From Amanita rubescens (taxonomy: Eukaryota > Basidiomycota > Agaricomycetes > Agaricales > Amanitaceae), in the NCBI GenBank assembly GCA_015039365.1, contig WION01000149.1:1-64000 (forward strand): a DNA stretch of 64,000 nucleotides. The letters are read 5' to 3'. Below, piece by piece: positions 5,878-50,342 of the stretch (the first letter of the stretch is position 1; every line of letters starts with the position of its first letter). The translations under genes and the position numbers were made by a program. The notes under the pieces are model-generated. The model searched no databases and was not told the DNA's origin. It worked only from the letters and a program-made list of their open reading frames with translations.

Positions 5878-6494
5878 GTATGTGATTGGTTACCAGTGAT
5901 TGATGCCGTCATCTGCTCCTCAGCTCATACATTTTCTATATAGGACCTACAGCGATCCTGAACTCGTGATCTTCCTTCCCAGGGATAGGGATCGACGGAT
6001 CGCCGAATGGACTTGACTACAATAGACAACGTCAGATGACGCAGTAGCTGCTGAAATAAGCATTGACGCAACGGGCGCCGCATCCGACGGCTCACCGAAT
6101 ATTACTATATCGAACAGTATCCCGCAGCTCAAAGATCATACTTCAAGTGATTAGCCTATGGTCGTCACGGTAAGTACTTCGGACTTCATGCGCGTTATCA
6201 TTTCTGACAGGCGAAACATCTAACGGAGCACCGAAGGCCACAATAACGGTGCTCCGATGCTCAATGATTAACCATCAGATGATGCGCCTTTACTACTGTT
6301 CTATTTCTGGTGTGTTGAATTCGATCGCAATACGATCTACAGTCAGCTTCTCGCCTGAACGATGCGGCTTCAAGTTCACCACCATCGTTACCCTTATCAT
6401 ATGAGGGTATGTTCAAGTTTTTTTCCGTGTGCTATCCTGCTCCCCACAACCAGTCTTTCACCTCTCACCGTTGATCTGTGGTCTTCGTGTCTCA
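5878..6494. promoter_or_regulatory. Shared upstream region of the divergent cassette genes A and B
   Basis: This 617-bp stretch lies between the start codons of two divergent genes, so it should hold both promoters. It contains several short repeats of a GCCGTCATC/GACGACG type and GATCGACGGATCGCCG. I cannot place a confident TATA box. Confidence 0.35.
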
Positions 6495-8668
6495 ATGGCT
6501 CCAAGGAAAAGGAAACGAAGTAACACCAAACAAGTAAAGTCTTCCTCGGTTGTTCCGGAGTCAGACAAGTATGTCTCTTGTCTGTCCATCACACGTTTCT
6601 CATTTTGCATACTTCTATAGCTTCGTCATTCCAGGCGATGATGATAGCGACGTTCCACTTGCGCGTGTTTCAAGCACCAACATCCTGTCTGAAACTGTCG
6701 CTCACGAAAACGAGATCACAGAACCTGAGCAAATGTATGTCATTCTTTAAGCTTTCTCTTATTCTTTTCTTACTTCTGTCTATTGTAGCCCTAACCTCTC
6801 TACAAATGTCGCTGTTGATACAGATGAATATGCTGTCGTAAATGTCAAGAAACCAAGACTTTTCAAGTTACGAAGGTACATTTCGTTTCATTTCAATGCT
6901 TGATGTAGACATTTATCGCATCCAGTGATTCGGACCTTGCCAAACCTATTCAGACAGCACGTCCAACCAGAGGGATGCCCCGCATAAAATCTCAATCGCA
7001 TACAACAAAAGAATCCTCTACTGTGTATGTTGTCGCTTTCCGTTTTTCTCCTCATGACGTTGGCACTCAACGTGTTTCATATCTCAGCGCTTCTAGTACC
7101 GAAGGAGACTCTGATTTCGGTATAAACGATAACAAAGATAGACACTCGTATGTTCAATTCTAACTCTATGTTCTTCCGCCAAACGAGATATCGACTCAGG
7201 TTTTCCGATTCCGATATCGACAACTCAAATGAAAGCGGGGACGATTCCGATGCGATGCACAGTACGCATTCACTCAAATCGAGAAACTCAACGAATGTTT
7301 TGACAAACTATCGAGCAAAAGAAACAAAAACAACATATCTGGACTCTTTTCCGGAGATTACGGACTCCGGTGTTACACGAAACAAAGATATTCAGAATAA
7401 TCCCTTGATATTAGAAGAAGAAGATATTGATCCCCTCTTACGCGAAGAACATAAGACTCTACCCACTCTTAGGCAAGTTTCGATGCATCCAACATCTTTG
7501 TGACTCTTCGTTTCGTGCTAACGTTTTCAACATTAAAGGAATGCATCTGTTATTCAATTTGTTCGGTTTGGCCAACCTCAACCTGAGCCAGGCTCTAACG
7601 TTGCTCTTGGATATGAGAAAGTTGTTTTAAACATGGTAGCGGGGCCTGAGGGTAAACGGTACGTATACTAAAAACTTGACCCAATGTGCCGATTACCATG
7701 TTTCCTTTTAGGCAATTAACAGCGGCAGTGAAATTTACCCACACATTACCTTTTCTCAATCCTTCTCGTGCATCGCCTAATCTAGTAGCATATGATGCTG
7801 GCAAAATATGCTTCAAGGGCGAAAACAGTAAACAAGGCAGGAACGCAGTGTTCCTTACGACTGGACTAGTTGTCGAATCTCAATTGAAAAATCCGACGGA
7901 TAGTTCGATTAATGCTAGTCACAAGGTGAGATTATATTTATTATCTTCTGCACTTCGTTCTGATAAACTGATATGGTGCTGCTATTTGCTAGATTCGACA
8001 GGTTGTCTTACTTCCTTTTGCGGGAGAAGTACAACGGCTTCTCGCCTATATAGGAACTGTGTTTGAAACGGACGAATATCTTTGCTTATTAGACTCAGGG
8101 AGTTTGCTTCTTACTACTCGCAGAGAAGGGGCCGGTGCAGATTATAACAACTCTGTAAATTATGCATCCTGTGCGTTTTCGTTCCTGATCTTCTTTGACT
8201 TCCCTAAATCTTTTGTAATCAAGCTTCAAGCTCCCCTTCACGTACGCGAGTACCTGCAGGACTTCTCACTTCATCGCCAGTCAAACTTGGATCATCGCCG
8301 AATCCAAACAAGGGAAAATCTACGCATTTTCCTCCATCACTTGGGTTCAAAGACAATGGTACGTACAATTTTCTGTCAACGTTATGTGTCTTAAAACATC
8401 CTCCTTCAAAGTACCTGTTTACGATGTGCGCAAAAGACCAGAGTTTATGTTTGACAAGGAAGGATTGAAGAATATCACGGATTTGCCGATATATAAAAAC
8501 GGCAAGACAGACATCCCCCCTTGCAAGTACATCGCTACTGTTGGCTATACAGTGGGCAGCTGGAAAACAAGAGCGAGCGCTGATGATGACACCATCAGAA
8601 GCTGTGCGAGCTTAAATATTCAGTTCATAATCATACTGGGCAAAGTTGACGTTAAAGACCTCGCATGA
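6495..8668 (+). CDS. Hypothetical protein, 536 aa, eleven exons (cassette gene B)
   Basis: Eleven exons join in frame to give 537 codons including the stop: 6495-6568, 6621-6734, 6789-6875, 6926-7024, 7088-7147, 7200-7472, 7539-7658, 7712-7925, 7993-8170, 8224-8358 and 8412-8668. One donor is GC (GCAAGT at 7473). The N-terminal ~230 residues are disordered and acidic, with a basic start (MAPRKRKRSNTKQ, a possible nuclear signal) and repeated Ser-Asp runs such as DDDSDV, FSDSDIDNSNESGDDSD. The middle is folded-looking (KFTHTLPFLNPSRASPNLVAY; LLPFAGEVQRLLAYIGTV). After a Ser/Pro linker comes a C-terminal domain (VPVYDVRKRPEFMF; YIATVGYTVGSW; LNIQFIIILGKVD). Uncharacterised Agaricomycete proteins carry a similar C-terminal pattern, but I cannot name the family. 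The complete eleven-exon frame argues for a functional gene. Confidence 0.7.
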
Positions 8669-8896
8669 TAACATCTATCTGATTGTTATGTATGATACAC
8701 GTATAACATAAATGACGGTTGTAGTTGACGTTATATGAACTCTTGCACCCATGTCTCCTCCATCTTCTCTACATGTTTCAATGTGCAGATATCAGTTTTT
8801 GGGAAAGGTTCATTCGCAAGAGTAAATGAGATACGCTTTACTTGAGTGGGTCCTTGAGGTAAAACGCATGGGCATGATGACGAGTCATCAATGACC

Positions 8897-9226
8897 TCAT
8901 GCAATTAAATGACTTATGTAATCTGAAGGAAAAGGAAACTCGTCATTGTCACGCATCTCTCCGTCCTCCTCACGTTCAGGATGCGGTTTCAGTGAACGCG
9001 TCCGTTCAAACGTCGAGAAACAAGAGGACCCCGAACAACACATATATATGTGAATGATCGGTAAAGAACCTTTGCTGTCCACGACATTTACATATAGGGA
9101 ATCTGCTGTTCCCTTCATCTTAACCCTAACCCTACTATATAACGTCAAGCCGATCTCAACGTCGCCAGCAAGCATTTCACCGCTGTTTATCTCTTCTTTA
9201 CTTAACGTTGGACTCCCATCCGCCAT
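8897..9226 (-). CDS. Small hypothetical protein (cassette gene C), intact copy
   Basis: A 109-codon frame starts MADGSPTLSKEEINSG and continues LTLYSRVRVKMKGTADSLYV; the middle has CCSGSSCFSTFERTRSLK and the tail is acidic. Conservation of codon frame with the broken inverted copy at 4318-4548 (substitutions such as Phe-Glu to Leu-Asp) supports coding. A short intron could interrupt the PIIHIYM region, which has no match in the other copy. Function unknown. Confidence 0.5.
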   Translation of the reverse strand: MADGSPTLSKEEINSGEMLAGDVEIGLTLYSRVRVKMKGTADSLYVNVVDSKGSLPIIHIYMCCSGSSCFSTFERTRSLKPHPEREEDGEMRDNDEFPFPSDYISHLIA

Positions 9227-9329
9227 ATGACATGTGTTCCATTCCTGTTGTTGAGACGCTTAGGGTAATTCTCCCTTCGGTTCGCCCCAACTCGACTTAC
9301 CTTGATTTGTCAGCAACTGGAATAGTTTT

Positions 9330-10085
9330 CAAGTCTAACCTTCAAATGGCGCTCACGCCAGAACCATCAACGGCTCTCAAATCTCTCACCTCATCTCCGT
9401 CGGCCGCCATACCAAAGTCGCCTCTACAAGCGGCTCTGGAGCCTGTCCCAAACACATTGACACCTGGTCAAACGGCGTTCATGCCCTTCTGACAAAAAGC
9501 CCATATGTCTACTCGCTCACGCTCGCAAGAGGGTCTCAAACCTACTCTACAAATGGCCATAGCACGGCCCCCCCTCCGCCCGTTACGTATCTGAAATAGC
9601 CGCCCATCCCAAACACATCTTCACGGCATTCAAGTCCTTCTCACAAACGACCCATACACCTACTCCCTCACCCTCAATAGCGGCTCTCGCATCTATTCTA
9701 CAAATGGCCTTAAGGCTTACACGTGCCCCCCCCTCCCCCCCAGCCTTACACGTGCCCCCCCCCCTATATATCCCAATTGGCCTACAAGCCTATCACTCAT
9801 ACCCTTACGGCCCTAGAGCCCATCTCACAAACTCCGGCTCTCTGTTTTCACCTCTCTCAACATCTGCGAATCGCGAATTCACCCTGTCACTATCAGAAAC
9901 GAACCCCGGTCTTATCAACTTGCCCGCTCACCATCAGAAAGGGCCCGTGGTTCACGCCTATGCTACTAAATACGCCTACGGTCCCCCCCGTACGTATCCG
10001 AAACCGCCTACAAATCGACCCAATCACAGCCACCGTACGATTCACATCCTTTACAAATCTCTCCAGGAGCGCACCTTTTGACGTT
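9330..10085. repeat. Degenerate repeat-rich stretch
   Basis: A block beginning CCCAAACACAT and ending CTACAAATGGCC occurs at 9447-9557 and again at 9607-9706, about 160 bp apart. Shorter related pieces (CTACAAGCGGCTC, TACGTATCCGAAAC, CTACAAATCG) are scattered on both sides. Runs of C occur at 9568-9580 and 9725-9770. Open frames here are C-rich by-products; I do not call a gene. Confidence 0.5.
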
Positions 10086-10230
10086 CATTGATGGGATTCA
10101 GAGAGGTGACTAACATCGTTCCATGTCATACTGCGTCTTTCGAAATCGGATATACGCCCAAATGTGCTCTGTACTTGCATACATCTAGTTACATACCATT
10201 TGTTTACCTAGCTCACCAATATCATTTCTC

Positions 10231-11049
10231 TTATAGAGTCTGTTCGATACTCGTATGATAGTCATGTGAAAATTTAAACTGTAGTGTAAAAAGAAACAAT
10301 TGAAGAGCGTCACTGTCAATCGACATTTGTGTACTCTGTATCACGTTTCTTCCCGGCATTCTTTTCTGAGGTCTTGGCCTGCTTGACGCGGGATGCGAGT
10401 GCTGTGCTACTAGAGACAGAGGATGTAGAAGACTGCAAAAGCAATGATGTGCAAAGGAAGGATAACTACCCAAAATGACCTTACCGCTACATTATTTTCA
10501 AGTCCACCATCAACAGGCGGGACAATCGCAAAAGGTCTTAGGCGATCGTCGTCGCTGTCGGTTTTACTCCCTTCTTTGTTGCTAGTGGAGTTGTTGATCG
10601 AGAGACATGTAAATCGTTCATCTATTGGTTCCTCCGAATGTATGACTCCTTTGACTCTCTCCGTGTAAATCTGATAGAACTTGTCGTCTATGATGTTGTG
10701 ATTCTAATAGTACAATAAACAAGGTCAGCGACTCCCTGTTAATAGAGAAGATGGGAAGACACACCGGACGGTGTCCAACATAGTGATTACCCGCTATGGT
10801 GAGAGGAGGAAGTTGCGCTACGTCCCCTGCGACGATGATGTTTCTCTCGTCAATCATAGATAAGCAATCGGAGGGCCAGGAGAGCATGAGGCTAAGCATT
10901 CGAAGAGACCCAAAACTGACCATGGACACTTCGTCAATGAACAGGTAGTCGAGACCATACCACAATTTGGTCATTTGTGCTTGGCAGGAAAGAAGGCGCG
11001 CCAATAGAGCAGGAGCAAGGGATGAATGATGCGGATGAACCTTTCCCAA
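10231..11049 (-). pseudogene. PIF1-like helicase fragment
   Basis: On the minus strand 10618-11049 encodes the central helicase motifs of the PIF1 family: a Walker B-like LFIDEVSMVS followed by NIIVAGDVAQLPP. A GT...AG intron may follow at GHRP. Downstream reading to about 10231 gives only short pieces. The Walker A segment (expected upstream, about 11050-11200) is not recognisable, so the gene looks truncated or decayed. It could be a relic of a Helitron or a stand-alone PIF1-like gene; it is on the opposite strand to the Helitron at 15-22 kb and is not part of it. Confidence 0.55.
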
Positions 11050-11637
11050 AACCCTTCACCTTTCAGGTTGCGGTGCTTCTTTGCCAAAGGCGGACAGGGT
11101 GTTCTAGAATTGCGTCGTCACATTGGCGCATCACATGATGGCAAAACTTTGAGCTCCGGAATACTGTAGGTTTGGTGATCCGTTCCGAGTTGCTGCGCCC
11201 TTTGCGTTAATTCATCATCCACACTAGAGTCAGCCGTGATCCATCGCACGATCGCATTCCTGCTGGAGCGTTCCAAAATGCTCCAGGAAATTCTCCAGAA
11301 AGATCCTGTGCCTGACGTCCCCACCCCACCTAAGTTGTTTGCTGAAGTGAGTAGGCGAAGTGGACGCATCAGTAGACTTCCGTCTGGCAGTGGCATCACA
11401 CGAACTAGCTGTAGTATAGCATTGACACTCGTACTAATGCCAATGTAAGGACCTATCCTCATGTCTCGAAGCGGTGACCATCACACATATAAATGCTATA
11501 CGAGCTACGTCGCCGACTAGTTGCTGTCTTTTGATGGTTTGATGCTCTATTATGAGCATTGAGAACAATCCCCAGCTTACAGAGCAACATTACGATGAGC
11601 ATTTAAACATGTCGTGTATGAAATTACATCTTTCTAT
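11050..11637. other. No gene assigned
   Basis: Short overlapping frames occur on both strands (11118-11462 minus, 11236-11448 plus) but neither has recognisable motifs or clear splice partners. It may contain further decayed remains of the helicase gene. Confidence 0.3.
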
Positions 11638-12646
11638 TTAATTCTTTATCACCATCTGTGGGTTAAACTGGTAAGTTTTGGCGTACTTCGTCAGTTTTAT
11701 ACACCACAATATGTTATGCCCCTCAAGTTTAGACCATTCTTTATTCTCTCCTTCAAGATTTATCATCCAGCACCGACTGTCTCCGAGCCAACGTGTCCTC
11801 ATTTTCAACTCATCCGCTGCGCATTGGAAGTTTTCAGTAAGTATTGTGTGTACCGCAAGCCAACCGCGTTTCTTGTATTTATCAAGTGCTTTCAACGCCT
11901 TTTTGTTTATCGGTCCACAAACTATTGTTTCTCGCTGGATAAAGGTGCTGACGGGATATAAAGAGTATGCACGCGCGTGTGTAATCACATTCATAACGCA
12001 GGCTTTATGTATCTCAGTTTAAGAACAAATCACATTAGGAACGCTACGCACTGGAATGAAAATCCAATATTGCACGAATCGGTGATGCCTTCGTCGCCAT
12101 CAATTGTACGACCTTGGCTGTACTTCTGTGCTTGAAGGTCTCCAGCGCCTCTATTTGTTGGAAGCTGGGATACTCATAGATGTTTTCGACAACATCCAAT
12201 GCATTATTTCCTATCTTTGGAACCAAGGTATACCCAAATGCGATCATCTGCGTCTTCCAGACTTCGAGGTGCTTCGCTTCAAAGTAGAGGTCCAAATCGG
12301 CATATTGATAATATGTCCTGTCGAAAAACTGCAACGCGGTGGAACCGCTGATAAGCGCGTCGGTACCCTTCATCGTTTTGACAAATTCTTGTACATCATT
12401 CTCCGATGACAAGAATGGCATAAGGACTCTTGTCAGTTTGAAAACTGACTGGCAGTATTCATCCTTCAGATCCCTCAGTCTCTGTGAGGTACGCTCTAGG
12501 ACCAAAATGTCTTCGATCGGCAGGAGATCAAAAATTTTGAACCACAATTCTACGCTGAAATTTGTCCTTAATTTCCGGTCATCAAAATAATACGAACAGC
12601 GATTGAAAAGTGTTACACACATATCGAAGGTGATCATCAATGACAA
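11638..12646 (-). CDS. F-box protein with a nucleotidyltransferase-like domain
   Basis: Two exons, 12052-12646 and 11638-12002, joined across a 49-nt intron, give 319 codons plus stop; the junction restores FHSTCVMNVITH. An F-box-like segment (FSVELWFKIFDLLPIEDILV) near residue 30 suggests recruitment to an SCF ubiquitin ligase. Residues ~95-120 read GSTALQFFDRTYYQYADLDL, resembling the G-S and D-x-D signature of nucleotidyltransferase-fold proteins. The C-terminal half (ITHARAYSLYP; LDKYKKRGW; DSRCWMINLEGE) matches what I recall of a lineage-expanded Agaricomycete F-box family. Whether the domain is catalytic is unknown; many such copies are probably binding modules. The start Met at 12646 is the first in frame; an upstream exon is possible. 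Confidence 0.68.
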
Positions 12647-13025
12647 TATCGGCTTTGTTATGCAAAAGATATGAGAACGGATAGAACGTGCACGAACGGA
12701 ATAGAGGTGACATCTAGAACCAGCATTGACGGTACTTATAGTTGTTCACGTCCAATAGGAATACTTCGATCATTCCTCTTCCGAATGGTTTAAATATGTC
12801 CCACGCGTGTAGAAGCCGCCTCGAACTTGCGTCTGTTCGTGCACTTTGTATTAAGAACTGAAGGATACATTCATTGATAACGTATATGATTCATGTGAGT
12901 ACTCTGTCTAACGTCCTCCACCTATCTACAACGTCGACACAGAGGACTGCGATAAATTTGTTCCATACGTTAAGCTTTACAATACAAATTAAATCAGTAA
13001 GAGAGACTTGAAAGTAGTGTTGATC

Positions 13026-13713
13026 TCACGATAAAACGATGCGTTCAGCCAATAAACGGTCAGTCGCCGTGATAGAAACAAGCCTTTGTTCTTCTGTTTT
13101 GGTGGTCTTCAAAATAAGCACATTGCCAAACCATAACGAATGACCGGCGGATAAGTTCATGATACATGAATTGACAATTTGATCTGTCTTTACTAAGTCT
13201 TTAACGTCGTTATAGCCAAGAATATGAGTGAAACATACCAACGACAAGAAGAAAAAGACATATTGATATTTCAATGGCAGAGGAGAACCAAGTGGAAATT
13301 CGTTCACGAGTTTCACTCGAGGTGTAGAGCCCTCAAAATACATATCCAAATTCATATTTTGCAAAGTTGGTTGTAATGATGGATGAATTAGAGGGATATT
13401 GATCAGAATGGGCAGCTTCGACGAGTCAGGAAATAGTAACGCCTTGAAAGTTGGATAGGATTCCTGCGCTTGATAAGAATTCAAACGTTATCGGTGGATG
13501 AAATTGTACGTACAACAGCAACTTCGCCACTTAGTTTAAGAATTTCCGAACGTCGCATATGAGGGCCCGAGAGATAGAAGTAGATGATGTCTGAGTGAAG
13601 GTGACTTTGGGAGCTAAGACGAGTCGGTGGTGGAAGTCAACGTAACATGTAATCCATAGGATGTAACCGTCGTCATCCGACTTGCCGGTTCCAACCAACA
13701 CGCTTAGCTTCAT
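13026..13713 (-). CDS. Hypothetical multi-exon protein
   Basis: A first exon from 13713 starts MKLSVLVGTGKSDDDGYILW. A second (from about 13463) encodes ESYPTFKALLFPDSSKLP and GSPLPLKYQ. A third ends LLAERIVLS at 13026. A GTACGT donor near 13513 and a GTATGT donor near 13240 are visible, but the first junction needs an extra intron or a frame change near 13531, where the frame from the first Met meets a stop. I do not recognise the family. It could be an intact gene with a short missed intron or a decaying one. Confidence 0.4.
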
Positions 13714-15290
13714 CGTTGCAGGGCAGTCCTATTGAGCTAAACTGTCATCCATGCATGCCGCGCGGGGTGTAATCTGCGGAAGCCCGTACTCACATCCATC
13801 CGACTTGATCATCCTGTATCCATAGTAACACTTTGAATCGGAAGCGAGAATTTCAGGATGGATCGCTGCGGATTTCCGTCCAAGTCCACCTAATCTGTCA
13901 TTGCGTCAACATGGCCGATAGCTTTACGTGCAAACATTAACGCACCCGGTAGCCATAATGGTGCTTTTCATGGATCAAGACGCCATCTCCAAGTCTTCAA
14001 ATGGTGTCTCTCACAACGCGCGTTCCGCGTCGGTGACTGGTTATCGCAGTGCGCGTGGGCGATAATGATTGAAATTGACTCCATGTATATCATGAGCGCC
14101 TAAATTTTACGTTAACAATGCGCCTCACCGTAGACAATGTACAGTCGTCAAATGGTGTCAGTCACGACTCACACAGGAGATCAATTCAGTGAATGAGACG
14201 GGATCTCCTTGATCAGCGGCCCACACGTTCCACATCTGCAATCGGTTATTTGTAACATGCTTCGGCAATGAGTTGATGTCGTGTGTATAGGCAGGAACAG
14301 ATAAATATTATGTAAATGTCTTGACTGTATCTGATATAGGCTAGCATGTTGCACGTGCGATGGGAATCCAATTATAACTGATAACCCTGTGACCGACCTC
14401 GACAGTCCTCCAACGTAACTACTACAAAGTGAAGATGTACATGTCGTGCGAATTGAAAGACTTGGTGAGTTTGCACTATGTGATCATCCATCCCTGTCTG
14501 ATTTCGTTATCCATTTAGCATCTTCTCATTTCAACAACTATCCAACCGTTCTATGGCCTATGTGTAGCGGTGGGGATAGATATTGATTGTGTTCTCGTCA
14601 ATGGTGCAATCCATTACATTGTCCATGATTAAGCTGACCTGACTTTTGGAAAAGCGCTGTTACTTTTCTCAAAAATGATTTACACAAGACTTGTACAGGA
14701 ATCGTCCATTACCAACTTAAGGAGTTTCCTGTACGGTTCACCACATCTGATAAGCTTGATGCGCGAAAAGCTATGCGTGAGTGATGATCATTGGGATATC
14801 AGTATTTATGTCTACACAGATGGATATACAGATGATGTTGCATGTAATCAACGCAGTTTCAGTGACCTCTTTTGCAAAATGGGATATCATGAATTGTGAG
14901 TCTAGTATGAGATGACGACGTTATGACGTTCCTTATTTTTGTTTTTAATAGCATTTCAACATGCGTTGTCTTTTTATCCTACGCTTGTGTGCCTAGTGGT
15001 CATCGTGGCATGCATATTAGTCAGAGACATCAGGGCTTTGCAAATAGCAGTTCTTGTACATGGTAAGAATCTATATTCGATATTACCCTCAAGGTCTTAA
15101 TACATATGATCCTATAGATTTGATTCACAATTCAATGTCTTGTGTTTATTCAATATCAGATACATTCTTATCTGTAAGTTCAAGCTATGATTCCATATAA
15201 TGTTCTAACACCATAATATATGTATAACAGCAACTTTATGTTCAATGTAGAATAGCATATATTCTTAACTTAGTTGCCCAAGACAGGGGT
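13714..15290. other. Gene-poor stretch before the Helitron
   Basis: I see no supported gene. A 74-codon frame at 14675-14899 has no recognisable motif. Base composition turns clearly AT-rich from about 14930, which probably marks the approach to the Helitron 5' end, but I could not fix a terminal TC dinucleotide. Confidence 0.4.
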
Positions 15291-23912: not shown

Positions 23913-24119
23913 AGAGCGGGACCGGTTGGGGATGGAGGTCAGGTTTAGGAGTGTGGAGCGGTCGGTAAAAAGGGGGGCGTCCACGCGTGTATGAGGAAGA
24001 TGAAGGGGGAGGAAGATTACTATGGTCGGTCCGATGAGGATGAGACCAGTGGGGGAAGAGACCAGTGGGGATGAGGCTGTTAGAGAGAAGAGGAAAGACG
24101 AGCAGTGATAGAAAGAGGC

Positions 24120-24350
24120 GCTAAGAAGAGGAAAGTGAGCAGCGATGAAAGAGGCTCTACTAGTAAGAAGAGGAAAGCAAGCAGCGATGAAAAAGGCTCT
24201 ACTAGTAAGAAGAGGAAAGCGAGCAGCGATAGAGAGGGCTCTACTAGTAAGAAGATGGAAAGCGAGCAGCGATGATGAGAGGGCTCTACTAGTAAGAAGA
24301 GGAAAGCGAGCACTGATAAAACAGGCGCTAAGAAGAGGAGGCGCTAGGGA
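24120..24350 (+). repeat. 39-bp minisatellite encoding a basic SSDERGSTSKKRKA-type repeat
   Basis: Four to five tandem units of about 39-41 bp share the core GGCTCTACTAGTAAGAAGAG. In one frame the first units read SSDERGSTSKKRKA, SSDEKGSTSKKRKA, then an inserted base breaks the frame. The KKRK motifs look like nuclear-localisation signals. This may be the decayed C-terminal part of the gene at 23251-23912, or a separate remnant. Confidence 0.6.
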
Positions 24351-29064: not shown

Positions 29065-32000
29065 ATGGCAGAGACTGCTGGTGCACATGTATCAGGTATG
29101 TCAAATATTCAGACTTGTGCCTTGCAGAGACTGATGTAGGATATATCAAAGTGCTTAAGGAACAATACAAATGCCCCCATTTTCGGATTCTTATCATAGG
29201 AAGGGCCAATGCGGGCAAAACAACCATTCTTGAGAAGGTCTGTGGTGTAGAAAGTGGGACAGAGCCTGTCATTTATGATCAGAATGGTGAGCTAAACCAA
29301 ACCCTCACCTACTGTATGTGTATTCACTGTGCTTTAGATCAACAATTGGTTCCTTCCACAATACATTTGACACCATCAATGGAGGTGAGTTGACTTATGA
29401 AAATGAACAATTGGATCAGATGCAATAGATTATAGCGAGGCATTCATGATATTGAACACCAAATTACATACCCTGGAAGCAACTTTATCTTCCATGACTC
29501 TCAGGGTTTTGAAGCTGGTGCAAGCGAGGAATTAGTAAATGTCTGGAAATTTATTGATAAGAGGTCAAGTGCAACTCGAGTTAAGGATCAATTACATGCA
29601 ATTTGGTATTTATGTTGTTTATTCTTTTCAACAGTAAACAGGCTAAGCTTTTTATAGGTACTGCATACCCATGGACAGTCCTCGTCCTCTTCTATGTGCA
29701 GAGCTTGAATTTTTTGCCAAAGGCATTGGGAAAGGTTAGTCCTGCAGCCAATTACACATTGTCATAATATTTGGTTGAGTTGGCAAGAGCCTCTCAGCCT
29801 TTTTTTGCAACTCTCAACTGAATGATACATTTTCAGTGCCTTTGGTAGTGATATTCACCAAATTTGATGGTCAAATAATTCAAGAATCTACTCAGTTGAA
29901 TGAAGCTGAAGATAAGTGGGAGAAGGCTAGAGAAAATGCTGATAAGACTTTTCTGGGAGTTTATCTTCCTAAAGTCCTGAGTACAAGATATCCCCCAAAA
30001 GCCTATGTGCGATTGGAAGGTAGAAATTAAAACAAAAAACCTAAATATATTATGTCCTAATGTTGCTCAACAGATATGGATATTCCAGGGAATAACTGTC
30101 CAGAATTGACTGAGAGGACTGCTGATGTAATTGATGATGCTAGTCTTCTCCAGTTGTTTGTCTCAACACAGATGAACAATGTCAATATTTGCATCAAAGC
30201 TGCACTGAAGTAAGAAATCACATTAGGATCATCACTCTGAATTTCACAATTTTTAGATGTATTTTGGCTGCAGGGGATTCCAGATGGAAGATAATTTTCA
30301 TGTTGGTTCTGATCCACTTTCCACACTATTGGGTGAGTGTGTGGCACCCTCTAATGGGAATGTTAAAAAATCTAAGATAAAGGATAGAGTATTGTAGCAG
30401 TATGTTCCTTCAATATTAATGAGTCATGCAACAATTGAAGTATGTAATAGGTTGTAAGTGTATTGACATCCCCTTGCACTGATGTGCTCAATCATGGCAC
30501 ATTGAACAGGATGAAAAAAATGTAAGACACATGGCTTGACACTACAGTGTTTTAGAAATTCTAATCACATCACATCTCACTCCCAACAGCTTGTGTGTGA
30601 TGCTTCAGCATCATTTCTTTGGGAAATTTGATTATACCTCATTATCATGAACAGGAAGTGAGTGATACTGCAGTATGTTTTTCTTAACAGTTTGATCATA
30701 CTAAGTACTACAGCATGTATGTGATCCTGCATTGTGTTTTTCCAGACAGCCTAATCACATTTCATGATATGATTAGTCAGTAAGTGACACAATAGTCTTT
30801 TTTCCTGCCCAGAAATCTAATCATATCACCCACCACAACCAACAGCAAGTAAATGACTCTACAGTTGTCATTTTTCCACCAGGCAGTCTAATGAAACTTG
30901 TCCCATGATTGTTAGACAGTGAGCAAGACAATACAGTTTTGCTCTGGTGGACAATCTGATGATGTTCATGCTGTGGCCATTAGCTTGTGAGCTACCTACA
31001 TTACTACCAGAAATAGCATTTGAATCTCATCCCATTCCAACAGAAGGTGGGTGGCCAGGAGTCCTTGGCCTTCTGCACCACAATCAATTTTTGTATTATA
31101 ATATGACCAACAGCAAGTGAGGGTAATTTAACTATTCTCTATTGAACAATTTAACCACATCCATACTTCTTCACAACAGAAGGTCCATAAATGATGCTGC
31201 ATTGCTTTTTTGTCAGGCAGTCTGATACATCACACCCATTATTGACAGATTGTGAGCAATGCTGTGATATTTTTATTGTGATGGTCTGATTACACCTCAT
31301 CCCATGGGGAATAGCTTGTGAGTGACACTAGGTATCCTCACAGTTTTCTTGCACCATGTCTTATGACAAATAGAAAGTGAGTGACTGTGGTGTGTTTTTC
31401 TGTCAGGCAGTTGATTACATCTTATCACATAACAACAGGGGGTGAGTAACAGTGTTGCATTTTCTACTGGACAATTTTATCACATCTCATTAATGAATCA
31501 CAGGGGGTGAGTGACACATCCCTCAAATGAGTGGCCTGATCACATCACATCCATAACCAACAACAGCAAGTGAGTAAAACTGCCTCTTCCTGGCTGTTTG
31601 ACCACATATGGCCAACAGATTGTGAGTGGTGCTGATTTTCTTTATATATCCTGAACACCTCACCCTATAAAAACAGGGAGTGAGCAAAGTATTTTTGCCA
31701 GGGAGACTGATTAAAACTTCTCCCATGATCAATAGTGGGCAAGTGGCATATACAAGCCAATTTAACCACTTTTCTTCTCATGACCAACAGCAAGTGAGTG
31801 GAACTTCACTTATGTTCTTTGGGGCCTCAGATCACCTGTTATTCAGTCTGTCAGTTACACTAGAGTCCTTTACCAGACATTCTAATTCCTGTCTCAATTC
31901 ATAATAAATAGGTTGTAAGTGCCAGTGCAGTTTTTGTCTTAAATGCTCTGATGATACCACATGTCATTCCAAAGCTTGTAAGTGATCCTGCATTGTTTTT

Positions 32001-35000
32001 TTATTACTTGGGGTCTGATTACATCCAATGTTATGATGACAGGAGGTCTGCAATTTTCTGCAAAGCAGTCTGATAAAATTAATCTTCTATGACAAACAGG
32101 AAGTGAGTAGGAGTGCATGCTTTGTTTCTTGTTTCTCAACTGTTTGCATCACATCCTATGACCAATAGTGGGTGAGTAGGGCCAGCATACTTTATGAAAA
32201 CAAGATAATCACATCATATCCATGGCAAACAGTGGGTGAGTGACACTGCAGTGGCCTTCAGAAATGTAGTCTTACCATGACCAACAGCCTGTAAGTTACT
32301 GCAGTGCTTTTCTCTCATCCATCCTTTTCATAATGTGACCTCCAGAGTGTAAGTGCCAATAAACACTTTTGTATCAGGGAGCCAATCTCATTACATTTCT
32401 GGTGACCAACAGGTTGTGAGTTGTGATGATGTAGGATTTTTTGATCACATCTCATATGATGGGAATAGGTTGTGGGTGACTTTGGAATCTTTGCAGTTAA
32501 TAGTCTGATCACTCCTTATTACACAATAGGATGTAAGTAATTCCTGTTGGCTGATCTGACCAAATCTCATGATCTAAGAGCAGCTTGTGAGTAACACTGC
32601 AGGAATTGTTTCTAGGCAATGATGACATCTTATCCATCACCAACAGCAAGTGAGTACAGTCACTGCAATGTTGTTCTGCCAAGTAACTGGATCAAATCTC
32701 ATTCAATGACCATCAGCAGGTAAGCAACACTACCCCTTTCCCTGCCAGGTAGTCTTATTGCATTTCATCCCTTGACCAACAGCAAGTGAGCAGTACTTTT
32801 TGCCAGATGCTCTAGTCTGATCACATGCTACCTGATGACTGACAGGAAGTGAGTAATTCTGGCATGAATTTTTCACTGCAAGTAAACTGGTACACCTAAT
32901 CTCTTGACTAATAGTCAGTAAGTTGCACTGCATTTCTTCTCACATATAGCTTGATGATATGTATTTTATTCCATGACAAATAGGAAGTGAGTAGTACTGC
33001 AGTGTCTTCCATCAGACACTTTGATCACATCTTACACCATACCAACAGATAGTTGAGTGATACTGCAGTGATTTCCATTAGCTGTCTCATTTGATCACTC
33101 TCAACATATGCAGTGGGTGAGCAACATTGCAACATTTTTCATTCATGCAGTTTGATCGATATCTCTTCCCATGATCAATAGACTATGGTATTATTGCTGC
33201 ACTTTTTTTCTAGGAATCTGATCACAACATTCTATCATAACAGGATGTTAGTAAAATTTGTTACCACCTCATACAATCATCATATCTCATGTGATAATAA
33301 CAGTTTGTGAGTGACACTGCAATGTTCCTGCATGGTCATTTTGAAACACATCCTCACTGTGACATTGAGTAGCTTGTGAGTGGCAGTAAACTCATCCCAT
33401 CCCACTTGTTTGAACATGTACATCTCATCATGACCAACAGCAGGTAAGTAACATTGCAATGTTCATCAGGCAGTATCTCTGATCACAATACACTCCATAA
33501 TGAACAGAAGGTATGAGTGCTTTAAGATCTGAGTATTTATATCCTATCTCATAACCAACAGCAAGTCAGTAGCAATCCAGTCTTTTCCTGCCATGTAGTC
33601 CAATCACTTCTCATGACATCAACCACAGATTGTAAGTCATGCTTCAGGTTCTTCTGTCAAGCAATTATTCAAGACTCATCTCATGACAAACAGGAGGTGA
33701 CATGCAGTCATTCCTATCAGGCATCCTAATCATGTTTTGTGCAATAATCAACAGATTGTAAATAATGGTGCTGTATGTGCTAGCAGAGAGTCTGATGAAA
33801 TCTGTTAACAGGTTGTGAGTAAAAGTGCACCATTTTTTGGCCAAACTGAAGCAGCCTGGTCATGTGTTTCTTTATCTCAGGAAGCAAGTGGCACAAAATT
33901 TTGTCTGTCAGGCAGTTTTCTGATGTCTATTGCATAACCAACAGCTTGTAAGTGATGGGGTAGCTTTTTTTCCTGACAGCCTCTCTACACCACATGTACA
34001 CAATCCAGAGTCCACAGCAAGTGAGTTATCATGCAATGATGTGATTACATCTTATCCAAGGGCCAACAGAGAGTGAGTGTTACTAGCATTCAGATCCTAT
34101 TCTTCCTGACAATCAGATTAATCTACCTTATGCTGGTTTTCAGAAAGTGTGTGCCACTTTTCAGATAGTCTAATTGCATGCCATATCACAACCAACAGGA
34201 AGTGAGTAGTACCATGGTGACTTTCTTCCATGGCCTTTGCCTGAACCTCTTCCCATGACAAACAGGAAGTGAGTGACACTCAAGTGATGTTCTGGCAGAC
34301 AGTCTGATCACATCCAACAGATAGTGAGTGGCTCTGTGACTTGTTTACACCAGATCTAATCATTGTCATTCTATGACCAATAGGAGGTGAGTGATACTGC
34401 AGTGTTTTCTGCCAAGCAATCTCATCCCATCCCATTCAATGGCCAAAAGAATGTGAGTGACACTGAAGAACTTTTGCCTGCCAGTATAATCACTCATTAT
34501 GCATTGATCATACATAGCTGGTGAGGGCACTACAATGTCTTGTGGTACATTGTCTGACTCATTACATCAAATGATCACACCCATGACCAACAGGAAGTAA
34601 GTAGCACTACTGTCTTTGTTTTTCTGCCTGGAAGGATGTAATTGCATTCCATGAACAACAGATAGCAGTGAGTGATATTGTGTTGCATTTGTGCTTGGCA
34701 ATTTATTGAGATGGATACATATCACCCCAATACCAACAGAAAGTAGGTGACAGTGCAGTGTTTCCCTGCTAATCATTCAACTCATACCATTCCATAAATG
34801 ATAGGAAGTGAGTTAGAGCCATCTTTCTGTCAGATGATTTGATCAAATATTGCCCTCCATATAAGGCCGTGAGTGATGCTGCAGTGATCTTCTGCAGAAC
34901 ACCATGATAAAATCTCATCTTATGACTAACAGGAAGTGGGTAATACTACATCCCTGGTTCTTCCACTACTCATTCTTCTCACAATCAATAGGCAGTAAGT

Positions 35001-36497
35001 GACAATACTATTGTCTTTGTTGTGCTGCTAGTCAATCTCATAAAATTGCTAACAGTTAGTAAGTGGTGATGCATCAAACAGTTGCAATCATATCTCATTA
35101 TGTGCTGATCAATTAACAGCAAGTGAGTGATAATGTGGTTTTTTGTTCCAGAAAGTGTGATACCTCATTCCACACCAAACAGTTTGTAAGTGGGACTCCA
35201 GTGATTTCTGCCAAGATATCAGTCACATATCCATATCCCCCAATACAAAAAGCAAGTGAGTACTCCTGCAGTTTCTTCTTCCACTGGTCAGTCTGATCAC
35301 ATATCTCTATGACCAACAGCTTGTGAGCAATATTGTCATTTTATCTTGGAACTCTAATGACATCACATCCCATAACCAACAGGAAGTGAGTAATAGTGTA
35401 CAAAACTGTATTCAAGGCAGCCTGATCAAAACTCATCCCATTACCAATAGCAAGTTAGTGATGTTAGTGTATAGCTCTGCAAGGCACTCTAACCACAGTG
35501 TATCCCATGATGAATAGCTTGTGAGTAAAACATTAATCTTTTTTCATGCAAACAAGTCTCATTTAAGACCACCAGGATGTGAGTGACACAACATGTTTGC
35601 ATTCCATTCAGCTTGATCATGTCACACCTCATAATAAACAGCATGTCAGTAGCACCACACTAGGCTTCAGCCATAGTGAGATGTATACTGATTCCAGTCA
35701 CCAACAGATTGTTGGTTGCATCACTGTTTTCATTGTTCTGCAACCTGGTCTGACCGTACATATCCCATACCCTAACAAACAGTTTGTGAGTAATGTTGGA
35801 TTTATCAGGATCTGATCTTATCCTTATACAAACAGGCTGTGAGCAATACTGCAATGTTTCCTGTCCTGGAGTCTGATTACAACAAACAGCAAGTGAGGAA
35901 ATATACTGTCTTTTATATTCTTTTCCATCACTCACACTTCAAAATTATCCATAGATTGTAAGATGTTATACATGGCCTTCCAACCAGTACATTCTGCACA
36001 TTCTTAACTTCAATACTGGTTCTCTAGGTCAGTGGTAAAAGACACAAAAGATTGATATACATACATGCTAATGAGCACTTAGCTTGTGTGCTCATTACCA
36101 AATTAAGTTGATATTCTGCTCATCAGTCACTAGGCTGGACTTCTCTCTTTGTTTGGAGAGGATGTATCAAATTTTGAAGAAACTGTAGGAGTTATATTTA
36201 TGCCTGCAGCACACAGCTGACATAATATAATCAGCCCATAGCCTTCCAAATCTTAGTCTGTAATACACAATGCTTGATTTATGGTTTTAAACTAACAATA
36301 TACAAGCAATGACTATCCTTGTCAAGCTGTCATTTTTTATAAGGAAGCCACTCCTTATATCATTACAAGATGCTTTTAACCAGTTCAAGGAACAAGACTT
36401 CGTGGGCAGACTCAAGATGCACATTACTTCTGAATCTTTGCCTTCTGACAAAAAGGCTTTGACTGCCTTTCTGTATGATTTGACTATCTCCATCTAA
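29065..36497 (+). CDS. GTPase-domain protein with a single-codon exon array (copy 1)
   Basis: Eight ordinary exons (29065-29095, 29128-29286, 29338-29384, 29436-29605, 29658-29734, 29837-30019, 30074-30209, 30257-30332) give 293 codons, ending in phase 0 at HFPHYW. They encode a P-loop GTPase: G1 GRANAGKTT, G3 in HDSQGFEAG, G4 TKFDGQ, plus YPPKAYV and NCPELTERTAD, typical of a GTPase family abundant in Agaricomycetes. Then come about 87 units of intron plus tiny exon (see the array). A conserved last exon (36291-36497, 69 codons with stop) starts TNNIQAMTILVKLSFF. If all units are spliced the protein is about 450 residues. The acceptor before the last exon reads AA, not AG as in copy 2, so this copy may end differently or be damaged. 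Codon use is AT-rich, unlike neighbouring genes. Confidence 0.75.
30333..36290 (+). repeat. Array of ~87 intron-plus-single-codon units in GTPase copy 1
   Basis: Degenerate units of about 65 bp, each reading GTGAGT or GTAAGT, a middle with CTGCAGT and a CTGAT/CTAAT branch-like motif, then CCAACAG or AATAG, followed by three bases before the next GT. The tiny exons include CAA, GAA, CTT, ATT, GTT, GAT and TGG. Exceptions that I read are 12 nt (30510-30521, Asp-Glu-Lys-Asn), and 6 nt (ACTATG near 33181; ATAGCA near 34669). I found no stop among them. The last unit is followed by a longer intron of about 330 bp. The count is by eye and may be off by a few. Confidence 0.85.
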
Positions 36498-45589: not shown

Positions 45590-48500
45590 ATGGCTAAAGC
45601 TGAAGCTGCAAGTGCAGATGCAAACAGTGGGTTAAAATACTCACCTTGATTTCACCTTGATTTCACCCAGGCATAATTTACAGGTACAGATTTTGTAATG
45701 CTCAAGGAGCGATATAGATGTCCCTGGTTCCGTATTCTTATCATAGGAAGGGCTAATGCTGGAAAAACAACTATCCTGGAGAAGATCTGTGGTGTAAAGC
45801 ATGGAACAAAGCCAATCATATATGATCAGAATGGTATGCCATGAGGCAAAGCAAGTTATTTTGCATATTCAGTGATAATATAGGTGAAGAACTGGCTCCC
45901 TCTGGCACACATCTAATGCCATCAATTGAGGTAAGCAATATGATAGAAAATCAGTGCTTTTAATAATGTAATGAATTGTCAGAGAGGAATACATGATATT
46001 GAGCACCAGATCACATACCAAGGAAGCAACTTTATCTTCCATGACTCTCAAGGTTTTGAATCTGGTGCATCTGAAGAGTTGGAGCATGTTTGGAACTTCA
46101 TTGACAAGCGGTCAGCTGGAGCAGAGCTGAAGGACCAGTTACATGCAATCTGGTATGTGTCTAGTTGTATTGCTTCCTTACAACTAGGTGATAAGTAATT
46201 CAAAGGTATTGCATACCCATGGACAGTCCTCGTCCTCTTTTATCCACAGAAGTTGAATTCTTTGATAAAGGAACTGGGAAAGGTGAGTCAGAAGGCAGTC
46301 ACAATAATTTTTGGTTTAGTTTGGCCACTTGCCTTTTGCATTATTTACATGTCCTACATTTCATGTGGCCCTACAGGGATCACAGTGTACTGACTATGAA
46401 TATATTTTGCAGTTCCTTTGGTGGTTGTATTCACTAAATTTGATGGCCAAATAATTCAAGAAGCTGTCCACCTTAAATATTTTAATAATGAAGAAGATAA
46501 GTGGGACAAGGCCAGGAAAAATGCTGACAATACTTTTCATGCAGTCTATGTTCCTAAAGTTTTCAGTACTAAATATCCTCCAAAAGCATATGTGCGGTTG
46601 GAAGGTTGGATGGTTTGCATTTCTTTATTGCAGTCAGAGATAATGTTGTTTAACAGATATGGACGTTGCAGAAAATAACTGTCCAGAATTGACTAAGAGG
46701 ACAGCTGATGCCATTGATGATACCACACTTTATCAGCTGTTTATCTCAACACAAAGGAACAACCTTGATCTTTGTGTCAAAGCTTCCCTTCAGTGAGCAC
46801 AATGAAATGTAGAATCAGCTTCTTATTTTCTAGGAATGTTTTGGACCATGGAAACCCTGCATGGGATATCATTACAACTACAATTTTCTGCAAGTTTCCA
46901 CACTATTGGGCAAGTGAAAAAACTTTGCTGTTGATATAAAAGCTGAGTTAAGAACAGGAAGATTATACAGTAGGTTTCATGTAAAATAATGATAGCATGT
47001 ATAAATAAGGTCTGTAAAAGGAGGTAAGTCTTTTATATATCATTATATGACAAACTTGTCCCAATCATCATATGTGAAGGGGGTTGTATGTAATCCTTTT
47101 TTTTGTCTGCAGGGCAATGAAATGACATGACAATTTGCATCTTGCATTGAAGGGCAAAGAATTATATGTGAGCACTATAATATAATCTGTATGACCAGGT
47201 CTAATGCCATGTTAAAAGTGGGTAAGGTGTTTTCCAGACATGTTTAATATTTATTTGATCTCATTATACACAGAAAGTGAGTAGTCTTAGTTTTTTATGC
47301 CTCATCATATTAAATTTCATAATAATAGGGAGTGAGTGAATATGTATGTCTTCATTTAATTCTGCTCACCTCATATATGACCAATAGAGAGTGAGATACA
47401 TTACATTCTTCTACTATGCATTATCATGATTATGACTAACAGAGAGTAAGTAAAATTTATTTCTAGATAGTGTGATCTCAATTCCAGTATTCACAGGGAG
47501 TGAGCAATACTTCACTTTTGTATTTGTCTGATCACATCATCACATTGTGATCCATGTTTCACAGAGAGTGAGTGACATTGTAACACAGGATTATTCCCAC
47601 CATGGCCAATTACATCTCATTTCCACCTATAGTTTGTGAGTGAACCAGGCCCTCTTCATTATGACAATTTCATCAAATCTTGCCCCATGATAACAGCTGG
47701 TGGGTTTATGATGCTTTTTTTTTGGTAAAGATGGTCTTACTACATAGTATCATTCCGTATAATTAGGCAGTGAGCCACACTGCAGTTTTTCTTCTGGGCA
47801 GTTTCATCTTATGTCTTTTCATTGATCCACAGGATGTGAGTGGCAGTTGAGATATTCTTGTCAGGCAATTAATTACACACACTGTCATCATTCCGTGCCA
47901 TGATGAACAGGGAGTGAGTTGAAGACTACAACATTTTCCTGCATGCTTTTGTCACATCCTATCCATTACCAACAGAGAGTGAGCAACTCTCTTCCAGGCA
48001 TTCTCACTACATCTCATATAAATGACAGATTGTAAGTGATATTCTAGTTCTATCTGTCAGGTGGCTTCATCCCATGACCAACAGAAAGTCAGTGACATTG
48101 CTGTGCTCTCTGCCAGACATCTCATACATTTATATAATTGCACAACTAACAGTGTGCAAGTGTCACATCACTTCCCTCTATTGAGCAATCTCATCACACA
48201 TCATACCAACAGAATGTGGGTGAAATTCAGTTTTCTTTGCTAGTAACCTACAAATATCATGGTCAATAGGCAGTGAGTTACATTGCAGTTTCCTGAACAT
48301 TTAACTCAGGCCTGTGTCTCATCTCATGACCAAAAGCCTGTGAGTGGAACTGCAGAGTTTTCATCAAGGATTTCTCATGACTATATTATCAAAGGATGTA
48401 AGTGCACTGTTACAATCAGATGAGTCTTATTACATTAAGTCATTCCTATGAACAACAGGATGTAAGCAGCCTTGTCATGGACCTGTCTTATCATGCCAAA

Positions 48501-50342
48501 CATGATTGGGCCATAACAGTTTGTAAGCGGGTTGTTCATGTTTTACTATGCAACCCAATCAGACCTTCATCACCTAACTAGCAGGTGAGTGATACTTTAG
48601 TTTTTTGGCACCATTTCAGTTTAGTTTATGTGACTTCCCATGGACAGGGTGTGAGTCATACTCCACATTTTCTTGAGCTCCCAGATGGTCTTATCAGATC
48701 CAATCCCATAACTGGACCAGGGTGTGAGTCATACTCCACATTTTCTTGAGCTCCCAGATGGTCTCATCAGATCCAATCCCATAACTGGACAGGATGTAAG
48801 TCATACTTCACATTTTCTTGAGCTCCCAGATGTCTCATCAGTTATTCTCACAAAAATATTAGGACATTGTGAGTGAAATACCATGATGCTGTTGTGCAGA
48901 TCCTGGAGTCATTACTTCAAATTTCTTTCTTTTCCAATAGGTTGTAAGTTATATTGCAAAGTTTCTGTCATTGAATCTCATCAAATTTCATCACATGGCT
49001 AAAAGATCGTAAGTAATAGTGCTATTTTACCAGGTTGTTCCATCAAACCTTGACTTGCCCTATGACTAACAGGATGTGAGAGGCATTTTTTTTTCTTTCT
49101 GCCAGTCCATCTCATCTTCTCCGGTGTATTAATAGCAAGTGAGTGACATTGCAGCACTTCCTTCTAAGCATTCCAAAATGTCTCATCCCATGAATAACTG
49201 CAGTTTGTGAGAGATGTTATGCCTTCCACTGTGCATAATCTTACCAAGCTCATGCCAACAGCCAGTGAGTATTTTTTTCCAAGCAGTTCCATCTTAATCA
49301 CACAGCTGACAGTATGTGGGTGACACTACAAATACTTGCTTTAAATACATAACTGTAACCACTAATGTCCAAAAGCATGTATGTGACATTTTAGTGCTTT
49401 TATTATGCCCAGAAATTTGATAACCCCTTGTTCCATGTATAACAGGTTGTGAGTGAAGCTCAAGTGCTTTGTTCTACCACATCTTATATCTTACCCTTGA
49501 CCAACAGCAGGTCAGTGAAAATGCAACTTTGCTTCTTTCATTACATCTTATTCATGATTAAAGCAAGTGAGTGATATTGTTATTATATATTTGTTTCAGG
49601 CAGCCTAATCAATCTCACTAGCAAGTGAGTGGGATTTTTCCAAGCCACAAATCTTATCTCATCTAATACTGCAACCCCCAGGAAGTGAGTGACTATGATA
49701 GTCCTGGTTTATAGATCCTTCTTTGATGAGTAACAGATAGTGAGTTGTCTTTAGTTATGAACTGCTCTGTTCTCTATCGCATATACATAGATTGTAAGGC
49801 ATCATTCTCACTTCCAAACATGGCCTGATGGCCTTCTCCTAACTTTTCAGGTGAGAAATGGTGTAATGACACATACAAGATGCTAATATACATGCCAATT
49901 AACTTTGTCCTCAGTCTGTAAGTCACCAACCACAGAGTTGAAATCCAAAGGTTCACATTTGTTGTCATATTAGACTAAGCTTATCCCTCTGTTTGGTGAT
50001 GGGATTTCAGAGTTTTCAGTAACTGTAAGACCAATGTTGACTCTTGTATCATGCATGACTGAGGATAAGTGCACCAGCCTGTGGCCTGTCAGGCCTTAGC
50101 TGGTAGTAATGTTCTCTGCTTGATTGCTTTTTTAGACTAACAAGTTGAAAGCAATCAATATTCTTGCCAAGATGTCATTTTGGATTAAGAAGCCATTTGA
50201 AAAATCTATCCTGGATGCATTAATCCAGTTCATAGAGCAAGACTATGTGACAAAGCTCAAGGCATGCATCACTGTGGAGTCCATTCCCTCTGATCAGGAT
50301 GGCTTGGCTTCCTTCTTGAATAATAAGATTAAAAACATTTGA
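45590..50342 (+). CDS. GTPase-domain protein with a single-codon exon array (copy 2)
   Basis: Paralogue of the gene at 29065 with the same exon layout. The start is MAKAEAASADANS. The GTPase part carries GRANAGKTT (G1), HDSQGFESG (G3) and TKFDGQ (G4), then NCPELTKRTAD. The eighth exon ends CKFPHYW before a GC-type donor (GCAAGT near 46916). An array of intron-plus-codon units follows to about 49800, then a long intron of about 340 bp and a canonical TTTTTTAG acceptor. The last exon, 50136-50342, is 69 codons with stop and starts TNKLKAINILAKMSFWIKKP, matching copy 1. Other members of this family continue from the GTPase domain into a helical C-terminal part; here that part would be encoded one codon at a time. 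AT-rich codon use differs from flanking genes. Intact in my reading. Confidence 0.78.
46916..50135 (+). repeat. Array of more than 40 intron-plus-single-codon units in GTPase copy 2
   Basis: Same organisation as in copy 1 but about half as long. From 47280 to 49800 I read about 41 tiny exons, among them AAA, GGA, AGA, GAT, TTT, GCA, CAG and CAA, and one of 6 nt (GACATT, 48863-48868). The first part (46917-47280) is less regular and includes probable exons of 12 nt (GAAGATTATACA) and 15 nt (Gly-Lys-Glu-Leu-Tyr). I found no stop codon among the exons. Three units at 48651-48862 are nearly identical. Confidence 0.8.

Follow-up and report, generated by a model that had tools for sequence, protein, structure and literature searches.

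Gene 1 of the Amanita rubescens window and its array of tiny predicted exons

The window analysed here is the whole 64,000-nt stretch from position 1 to 64,000 of contig WION01000149.1 of Amanita rubescens (assembly GCA_015039365.1), and the entire assembly (75.7 Mb, 786 contigs) was scanned for related sequences. On its forward strand the window carries a GTPase gene, termed gene 1, in which eight ordinary exons are followed by a long array of small predicted introns, most of them separated by exactly three nucleotides, and then by three further ordinary exons. A second gene of the same kind, gene 2, lies further along the window and is described below. The features of gene 1 are as follows.

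29065..30332, + strand, GTPase part, eight ordinary exons with an open frame of 289 codons
29065-29095, 29140-29286, 29338-29384 and 29436-29605, + strand, exons 1-4
29658-29734, 29837-30019, 30074-30209 and 30257-30332, + strand, exons 5-8
30333..36133, + strand, array with 89 predicted introns and 88 tiny exons, 95 residues
30388 and 30510 (12 nt each) and 34662 (6 nt), + strand, longer exons within the array
36028 (first donor base), + strand, candidate recursive splice site, a zero-nt AG/GT past the last array codon ATT
36134..36184, + strand, ordinary exon encoding AGLLSLFGEDVSNFEET
36235..36259, + strand, ordinary exon of 25 nt, PIAFQILV
36307..36497, + strand, terminal exon, SMTILVKLSFF...TISI, stop TAA

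The GTPase part has homologues in Amanita and other Agaricomycetes, as found by protein database search, and contains the motifs GRANAGKT, DSQG and TKFD, which we take to be G1, G3 and G4 of a P-loop GTPase. The Pfam scan of gene 1 gave eight weak matches, the top one to MMR_HSR1 at 18.2 bits (under the 21.9 cut-off), and no NACHT or NB-ARC domain, in which gene 1 differs from the fungal NLR/STAND receptors. Exon 8 terminates in ...HFPHYW. It ends in phase 0, as an earlier note on this DNA had stated, but the eight exons comprise 289 codons and not the 293 given there. The predicted protein has 472 residues, and its frame is open from start to stop over 98 predicted introns, of which seven lie ahead of the array, 89 inside it and two after it. 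Spliced as predicted, the array would add 285 nt between exons 8 and 36134-36184, reading SIVAVDEKNLEHSQTLKQ...IFAQIL. The encoded stretch separates the GTPase domain from a conserved C-terminal domain; E, Q, L, K and I are abundant in it, and its composition suggests a helix.

The 3′ part of the gene was revised in two respects. The earlier note had let the array run straight into a last exon at 36291-36497, and this does not hold: the two ordinary exons at 36134-36184 and 36235-36259 intervene, and position 36291 is preceded by AA, while 30 related loci share a later AG that moves the start of the terminal exon to 36307. By eye, each of these loci, many of which are duplicates, has the acceptor AG at the corresponding position. 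At the end of the array, the zero-nt site at 36028 was passed over in the gene 1 decode inside a single 125-nt intron. In 12 of 13 sequences, genes 1 and 2 included, a zero-nt site nevertheless lies at about this position (AG/GT in 10 and AG/GC in two), and thus an acceptor directly abutting a donor, the arrangement of a recursive splice site, is conserved there.

Splice signals in the gene 1 array recur at a spacing of three nucleotides

The spacing of acceptor and donor signals in the array was compared with other spacings and with chance. The + strand of the gene 1 array contains 58 matches to the pattern YAG-N3-GTRRGY, whereas each other gap between 0 and 12 nt gives 0-2 occurrences, and at most three acceptor-N3-donor sites were obtained in each of 500 first-order Markov simulations. 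A Viterbi parse of 30257-36497 without any exon-length preference, with site models trained on the 58 strict sites, returned 71 of 84 segments at exactly 3 nt; its 3′ part has been superseded by the later decode. That main decode, in which 3-nt exons are preferred, stops disallowed and introns limited to GT/GC-AG ends, placed 89 introns (48-127 nt long, with a median of 62) and 88 internal exons, of which 85 are of 3 nt, two of 12 nt and one of 6 nt. By all three counts (58 strict sites, 71/84 and 85/88) gene 1 displays the consecutive, short and frame-preserving exons by which a micro-exon gene is recognised.

These results confirmed the observation of the earlier note, a GTPase gene with an array of consecutive single-codon exons. 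Its estimates were about 87 one-codon exons and about 92 residues; the decoded numbers are 85 and 95, respectively.

Splice sites and triplets are under selection, and codon choice is biased

The ends of the predicted introns are conserved between gene copies. For the 71 three-nt exons of the type of parse without length preference, the comparison of gene 1 with its paralogue C767 revealed alterations of the acceptor AG at 0/70 and 1/69 and of the donor GT at 2/70 and 1/70, whereas 364 of 1,842 positions in the intron interiors (19.8%) had changed. Over the 89 decoded introns, C767 keeps GT at 84 and AG at 86. Therefore the GT-AG ends are under selection, as expected of U2-type introns, with the reservation that in gene 1 the decoder itself requires GT/GC and AG.

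The triplets between the introns behave as codons. Among 404 non-redundant strict units no stop triplet was present against 18.8 expected from base frequencies by position, and the same was true of the 502 strict units that include these 404 (23.9 expected), while TGG was found 15 times among the 404 against an expectation of 0.9. Genome-wide, the exact motif CCAACAG-N3-GTGAGTG occurs 2,073 times, compared with 14 for N2 and nine for N4, and 309 of its triplets start with T, of which two are TGA and none is TAA or TAG. Synonymous choice was compared with that in 19 ordinary exon segments of these genes: two-fold NNY codons (Cys included) end in C in 2 of 98 cases in the array versus 51 of 204 in ordinary exons (p 7e-8), and E, Q and K codons end in G in 23 of 161 versus 84 of 182 (p 1e-10). 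This bias is what splicing would demand; plausibly, C would be poor at donor position -1, and a terminal AG would compete as an acceptor.

The peptide of a sister array is found without introns in a related protein

The predicted gene 1 protein was searched against 5.8 billion proteins, by which 8,000 candidates were scored and 601 matches obtained, 120 of them listed. Among the matches listed, P0001, P0002, P0004 and P0007 are JGI proteins on contigs of 1,486-1,669 bp with 97-100% query cover; they match the three 3′ exons of gene 1 and carry a variable region of ~55-80 residues at the place of the array. The product of the exon at 36134-36184 aligns with ILPELFSVFG... of P0001 and P0002 and with ILPGLLSLF... 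of P0004. The counterpart of exon 6 in P0004 is 91% identical to that of a gene at C1:30432, hereafter the C1 gene, which is a sister of gene 1.

To decode the array of the C1 gene, donor and acceptor models were taken over from training on gene 1, and the branch model was set by hand; P0004 was not used in the decode, and the end points were set from conserved exons that P0004 had located. The array decodes to VGREDKHNEVDWFESADNAAAKERQYYDDGVHAGYGYYGGEKISEKERDKRKDFVEREIL, and the variable region of P0004 is VIREEDDKHNEIDWFESADDAAGKEREYYDDGIHSGGYGYYGGKKISEKERDHRRDFVEREIL. The two are identical at 50 of 60 residues, and at 42 of 50 among the single-codon exons. Their alignment scores 261.5, compared with a maximum of 48.5 over 2,000 shuffles, and readings of the C1 array shifted by 1-2 nt score at most 4.5 against P0004. 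The C1 gene has a zero-nt site between the exons ATT and CTT, and at this place I and L follow one another directly in P0004. The array of a further sister gene, C2, scored 86, 92 and 93 against P0001, P0002 and P0004, with shuffle maxima of 25, 31 and 30, respectively (1,000 shuffles each). Thus the micro-exons of C1 and C2 are found joined in intron-free sequence, on contigs that would be RNA-derived. The P0004 contig is most likely a spliced mRNA, and the C1-P0004 match is the strongest evidence for codon-by-codon splicing. A single-sequence structure prediction for P0004 was uninformative (mean predicted local distance difference test score, pLDDT, 35).

Collectively, splice-site conservation, stop depletion, codon choice and the P0004 peptide support, at the level of the family, the interpretation that the earlier note had put on the array, namely in-frame splicing codon by codon through phase-0 introns. 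The splicing of gene 1 itself would follow from that of its family, since gene 1 is without a matching database protein.

Arrays of single-codon exons are common to the GTPase family

The terminal exon gave 150 scored matches from 217 candidates in the assembly, among which groups of equal score look like haplotype duplicates. All 30 loci around the best of these matches carry an array: the 29 loci with full flanks contain at least nine strict units on the gene strand within ~3.2 kb, and the one cut by a contig end contains two, compared with 0-2 on the opposite strand of the 30 loci. The single-codon-exon array is therefore a trait common to this GTPase family, of which the assembly has at least 150 copies. 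Genome-wide, AAYAG-N3-GTRAGT occurs 5,338 times, against 142 for the N4 spacing and 292 for a reversed control. Because this pattern recovers, in effect, 111 of the 312 exons of 3 nt that were decoded in five arrays, the assembly may hold, as a rough figure that includes haplotype duplicates, ~5,000 to 15,000 single-codon exons. A figure of ~54,000 was discarded and its scaling left unused, because the exact pattern is matched at a far higher rate in homogeneous arrays than in the five arrays used for calibration.

Gene 2 has the same architecture as gene 1, with a decoded peptide that is shorter and glycine-rich and with one 195-nt intron that the decode needed. Its features are listed below.

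45698..46909, + strand, GTPase part (span of tblastn matches), last ordinary exon ending ...KFPHYW, GC donor
46910..49973, + strand, array with 47 predicted introns; 42 exons of 3 nt, one of 12, one of 6 and two of zero length
48641..48841, + strand, recent intron-plus-codon unit repeat, 73 bp, 2.8 copies, 94% matches
49974 (or 49980)-50024, 50078-50102 and 50152-50342, + strand, 3′ exons

A third family member probably lies just past the window, on the minus strand at C56:64698-68338 (terminal exon 64698-64880, exon 6 68153-68338). In another contig, at C372:21500-39900, the array of a gene 1 paralogue contains ~9.6 kb without a match to gene 1, possibly a mobile element. Among the matches listed, most NCBI models of the family from A. 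rubescens and A. brunnescens are ~260-350 aa long and cover the GTPase part only, so that public annotation seems to lack the C-terminal parts and those encoded by the arrays. Other tandem repeats of the window, at 24086-24339 (42-bp), 60732-60856 (6-bp) and 62329-62639 (165-bp), have no visible relation to the arrays.

Units appear to differ in age between arrays and to be exchanged between near-identical copies

The array introns of gene 1, gene 2, C1 and C2 form a single loose family, as random pairs of them are 51-53% identical, compared with 48% after shuffling and 46% to ordinary introns. The identity of neighbouring versus random introns was 0.533 versus 0.528 in gene 1, 0.524 versus 0.519 in C1, 0.539 versus 0.517 in C2 and 0.541 versus 0.511 in gene 2. 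Since neighbouring introns of gene 1 are hardly more alike than distant ones, its array is old, and a simple recent tandem duplication was rejected for it; with introns diverged to about 53% identity, it also lacks the homogeneity of a minisatellite with variant repeats.

Eight related copies (C13, C254, C257, C769, C228, C749, C79 and C8) gave a different picture, in which nucleotide diversity (pi) was 0.004-0.085 for introns and 0.33-0.65 for exons, as computed on 348 of 390 units (28-70 per array) whose intron start resembles the commonest one, a choice that lowers intron pi and leaves the exons unselected. The arrays in these copies look young. They possess homogeneous introns, variant codons and codon strings that differ between near-identical copies, which are the marks of a minisatellite with variant repeats. 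Gene copies that are 97-99.8% identical over 3.6-4.3 kb, arrays included, and that are either alleles or recent duplicates, differ in unit number or codon string. C769, C228 and C254 were compared unit by unit, as a MAFFT global alignment had slipped between units. C769 and C228, which share an identical 631-bp 5′ flank and differ by four substitutions and two indel bases in 3,326 intron bases, have two adjacent codons replaced by others (ATC GGA to CGA CGA). C228 and C254 differ in four adjacent exons as one block; their introns show 11 substitutions and seven indel bases over 3,324 bases, and their flanks 15 substitutions over 659 bases. Turnover thus appears to proceed by exchange of whole units, intron and codon together, much as in a minisatellite with variant repeats. 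The codon string of C257 differs almost wholly from those of near-identical gene copies.

Exons of other sizes were found in two copies. In C13 (581600-585000) all 47 introns are exactly 62 bp, yet 4 of the 47 kept exons deviate from 3 nt; in C749 (1900-5200) 17 of 46 exons deviate from 3 nt and 12 of 46 introns from 62 bp. The off-size exons have 0, 1, 2 or 4 nt between intact introns. Joined in order, the C749 exons give 134 nt, which is not a multiple of three, with frame 0 open throughout. These exons may reflect a process directed at triplets, relaxed selection in dead copies, or old exon diversity combined with homogenised introns.

Instead of by tandem duplication of units, the arrays might have arisen by insertion, with introner-like mobile introns entering an existing exon between its codons. 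The mostly near-identical introns with differing codons in C13, C79, C769, C228, C254 and C257 would suit such an origin, as would the loose intron family shared by the four arrays compared above. The unit turnover between copies of 97-99.8% identity and the 2.8-copy unit repeat in gene 2 argue for duplication instead, and we know of no mechanism that would insert introns at every third base; an origin by insertion is therefore unlikely, though it retains an appreciable chance.

Alternative explanations and points against codon-by-codon splicing

We consider it highly probable that the arrays are coding and are spliced codon by codon across the GTPase family. Several observations weigh against this conclusion. 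Of the 89 introns in gene 1, 15 stand out by a weak or odd site or by a length above 95 nt, and the lowest donor score is -13.5; the absence of stops and the AG acceptors in the decoded peptide are not independent support because the decoder imposes both, while the counts by regular expression are independent of it. Between gene 1 and C767, 54 codons are identical, one differs synonymously, 28 differ non-synonymously and two are gapped. The two genome-wide TGA triplets lie in C537 and C557. A database search with the array and 3′ part of gene 1 returned 654 candidates, none at E<=1, and a search with the C-terminal part of P0004 returned only P0004 and P0001 from 501 candidates, so that independent intron-free examples are few. 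The P0004 contig is read as cDNA from its length, 1,486 bp for 478 aa. Three residues of P0004 (E, D and G) are without counterpart in the C1 decode, and the C1 gene shows a shift of one base ahead of the PELF-like exon and, in the terminal exon, frameshifts, from which it follows that this copy may be decaying.

Decay could also concern the window itself, in that gene 1 or gene 2 would be a decaying copy whose array is no longer faithfully spliced, within a family that is otherwise spliced codon by codon. The 15 weak or odd introns of gene 1, its C-terminal part without a database match, and the short glycine-rich peptide and 195-nt intron of gene 2 point in this direction. On the other side, the frame of gene 1 is open through all 98 predicted introns (stops in the array being forbidden by the decoder), and of the ten gene 1 donors that score below 2, nine read GT in C767 as well. 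We regard decay of either copy as improbable.

As the contigs of the intron-free proteins are known here by size and protein alone, they could be genomic DNA of an organism whose gene has no introns. In that case, however, the ordinary introns would be gone too, although exon 6 of P0004 is 91% identical to that of the intron-rich C1 gene, and a processed retrocopy in genomic DNA would itself stem from, and therefore still record, a spliced transcript; this explanation is very improbable. Least credible is a non-coding minisatellite inside one large intron, in which the 3-nt spacing would reflect repeat homology and the tiny exons would be skipped, since, despite the mutual relatedness of the units (51-53% versus 48% shuffled) and the GTPase-only length of most listed NCBI Amanita models (~260-350 aa), it is contradicted by splice dinucleotides kept while interiors diverge, by stops that are all but absent, by the codon choice that splicing would demand, and by the C1 and C2 peptides present in full-length proteins of short contigs, P0004 among them.

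Relation to known systems

Schistosome micro-exon genes contain many short consecutive exons and form an expanded, fast-evolving family that resists annotation. Aphid bicycle genes have ~17 exons on average, with internal ones almost all in phase 2, and the megacycle gene uses >100 microexons for ~2,000 aa, that is, tens of nt each (PMC9168663). The Amanita genes resemble them in the series of short exons, the expanded and fast-evolving family and the difficulty of annotation (PMC9168663), and differ in having dozens of one-codon exons, in phase 0, with introns of one related family. Exons of 1-3 nt can be spliced, as is known from Arabidopsis APC11, with an exon of 1 nt (PMC4674806), and from Drosophila hth, with one of 3 bp (PMC7392893); those exons are isolated, whereas 42-85 are present per decoded array here. 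Introners are related, sometimes near-identical introns multiplied within one genome (PMC9860276, PMC4457414). Some Amanita arrays likewise consist of near-identical introns, but while introners enter many genes, the units examined stand in tandem in one gene family with a codon between them; a term search of the available text of one introner paper (PMC9860276) found no mention of Amanita. The non-self recognition genes hnwd of Podospora have polymorphic WD-repeat arrays under concerted evolution through deletions, duplications and new unit variants (PMC2873952). Rapid change, large copy number and polymorphic repeat arrays are shared with them (PMC2873952), but the hnwd unit is a coding WD repeat and the Amanita unit is a codon plus an intron; a recognition role would be assigned here by analogy.

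No report of arrays of single-codon exons was found among the top-ranked papers of open-access literature searches that were partly aimed elsewhere and covered few subscription papers or preprints; a phrase search of that literature for exons described as single-codon, one-codon or 3-nt yielded no paper.

Proposed mechanism and implications

In the mechanism that we propose, each unit of ~65 bp would comprise one small spliceosomal intron (GTRAGT...branch...AACAG) and one codon. An exon of 3 nt can hardly hold factors at both of its ends simultaneously, and the introns would therefore be recognised across themselves, singly, by intron definition, and then removed; the strong donors (GTRAGT) and the acceptors (AACAG) of these ~62-nt introns fit such recognition. 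A C-terminal stretch of ~95 residues would in this way be built codon by codon, and the arrays would grow through duplication of intron-plus-codon units, with the frame kept safe because every unit adds one codon.

It is conceivable, and we put it forward tentatively, that the arrays serve as a codon-level diversification system, in which near-identical introns provide the homology for exchange, gain and loss of units within and between copies. Each C-terminal residue, perhaps ligand-facing, would then have its own recombination cassette, and splicing would hold the frame; the exons of 0, 1, 2 and 4 nt in C13 and C749 would fit a process acting on triplets. By analogy with the hnwd genes, the family could have a role in self/non-self or pathogen recognition.

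Natural genes with series of dozens of 3-nt exons, on which exon definition looks sterically impossible, allow the lower limit of exon size and intron definition to be tested directly. The Amanita family may also represent a new route to protein diversity, one in which duplication and recombination would work on single codons.

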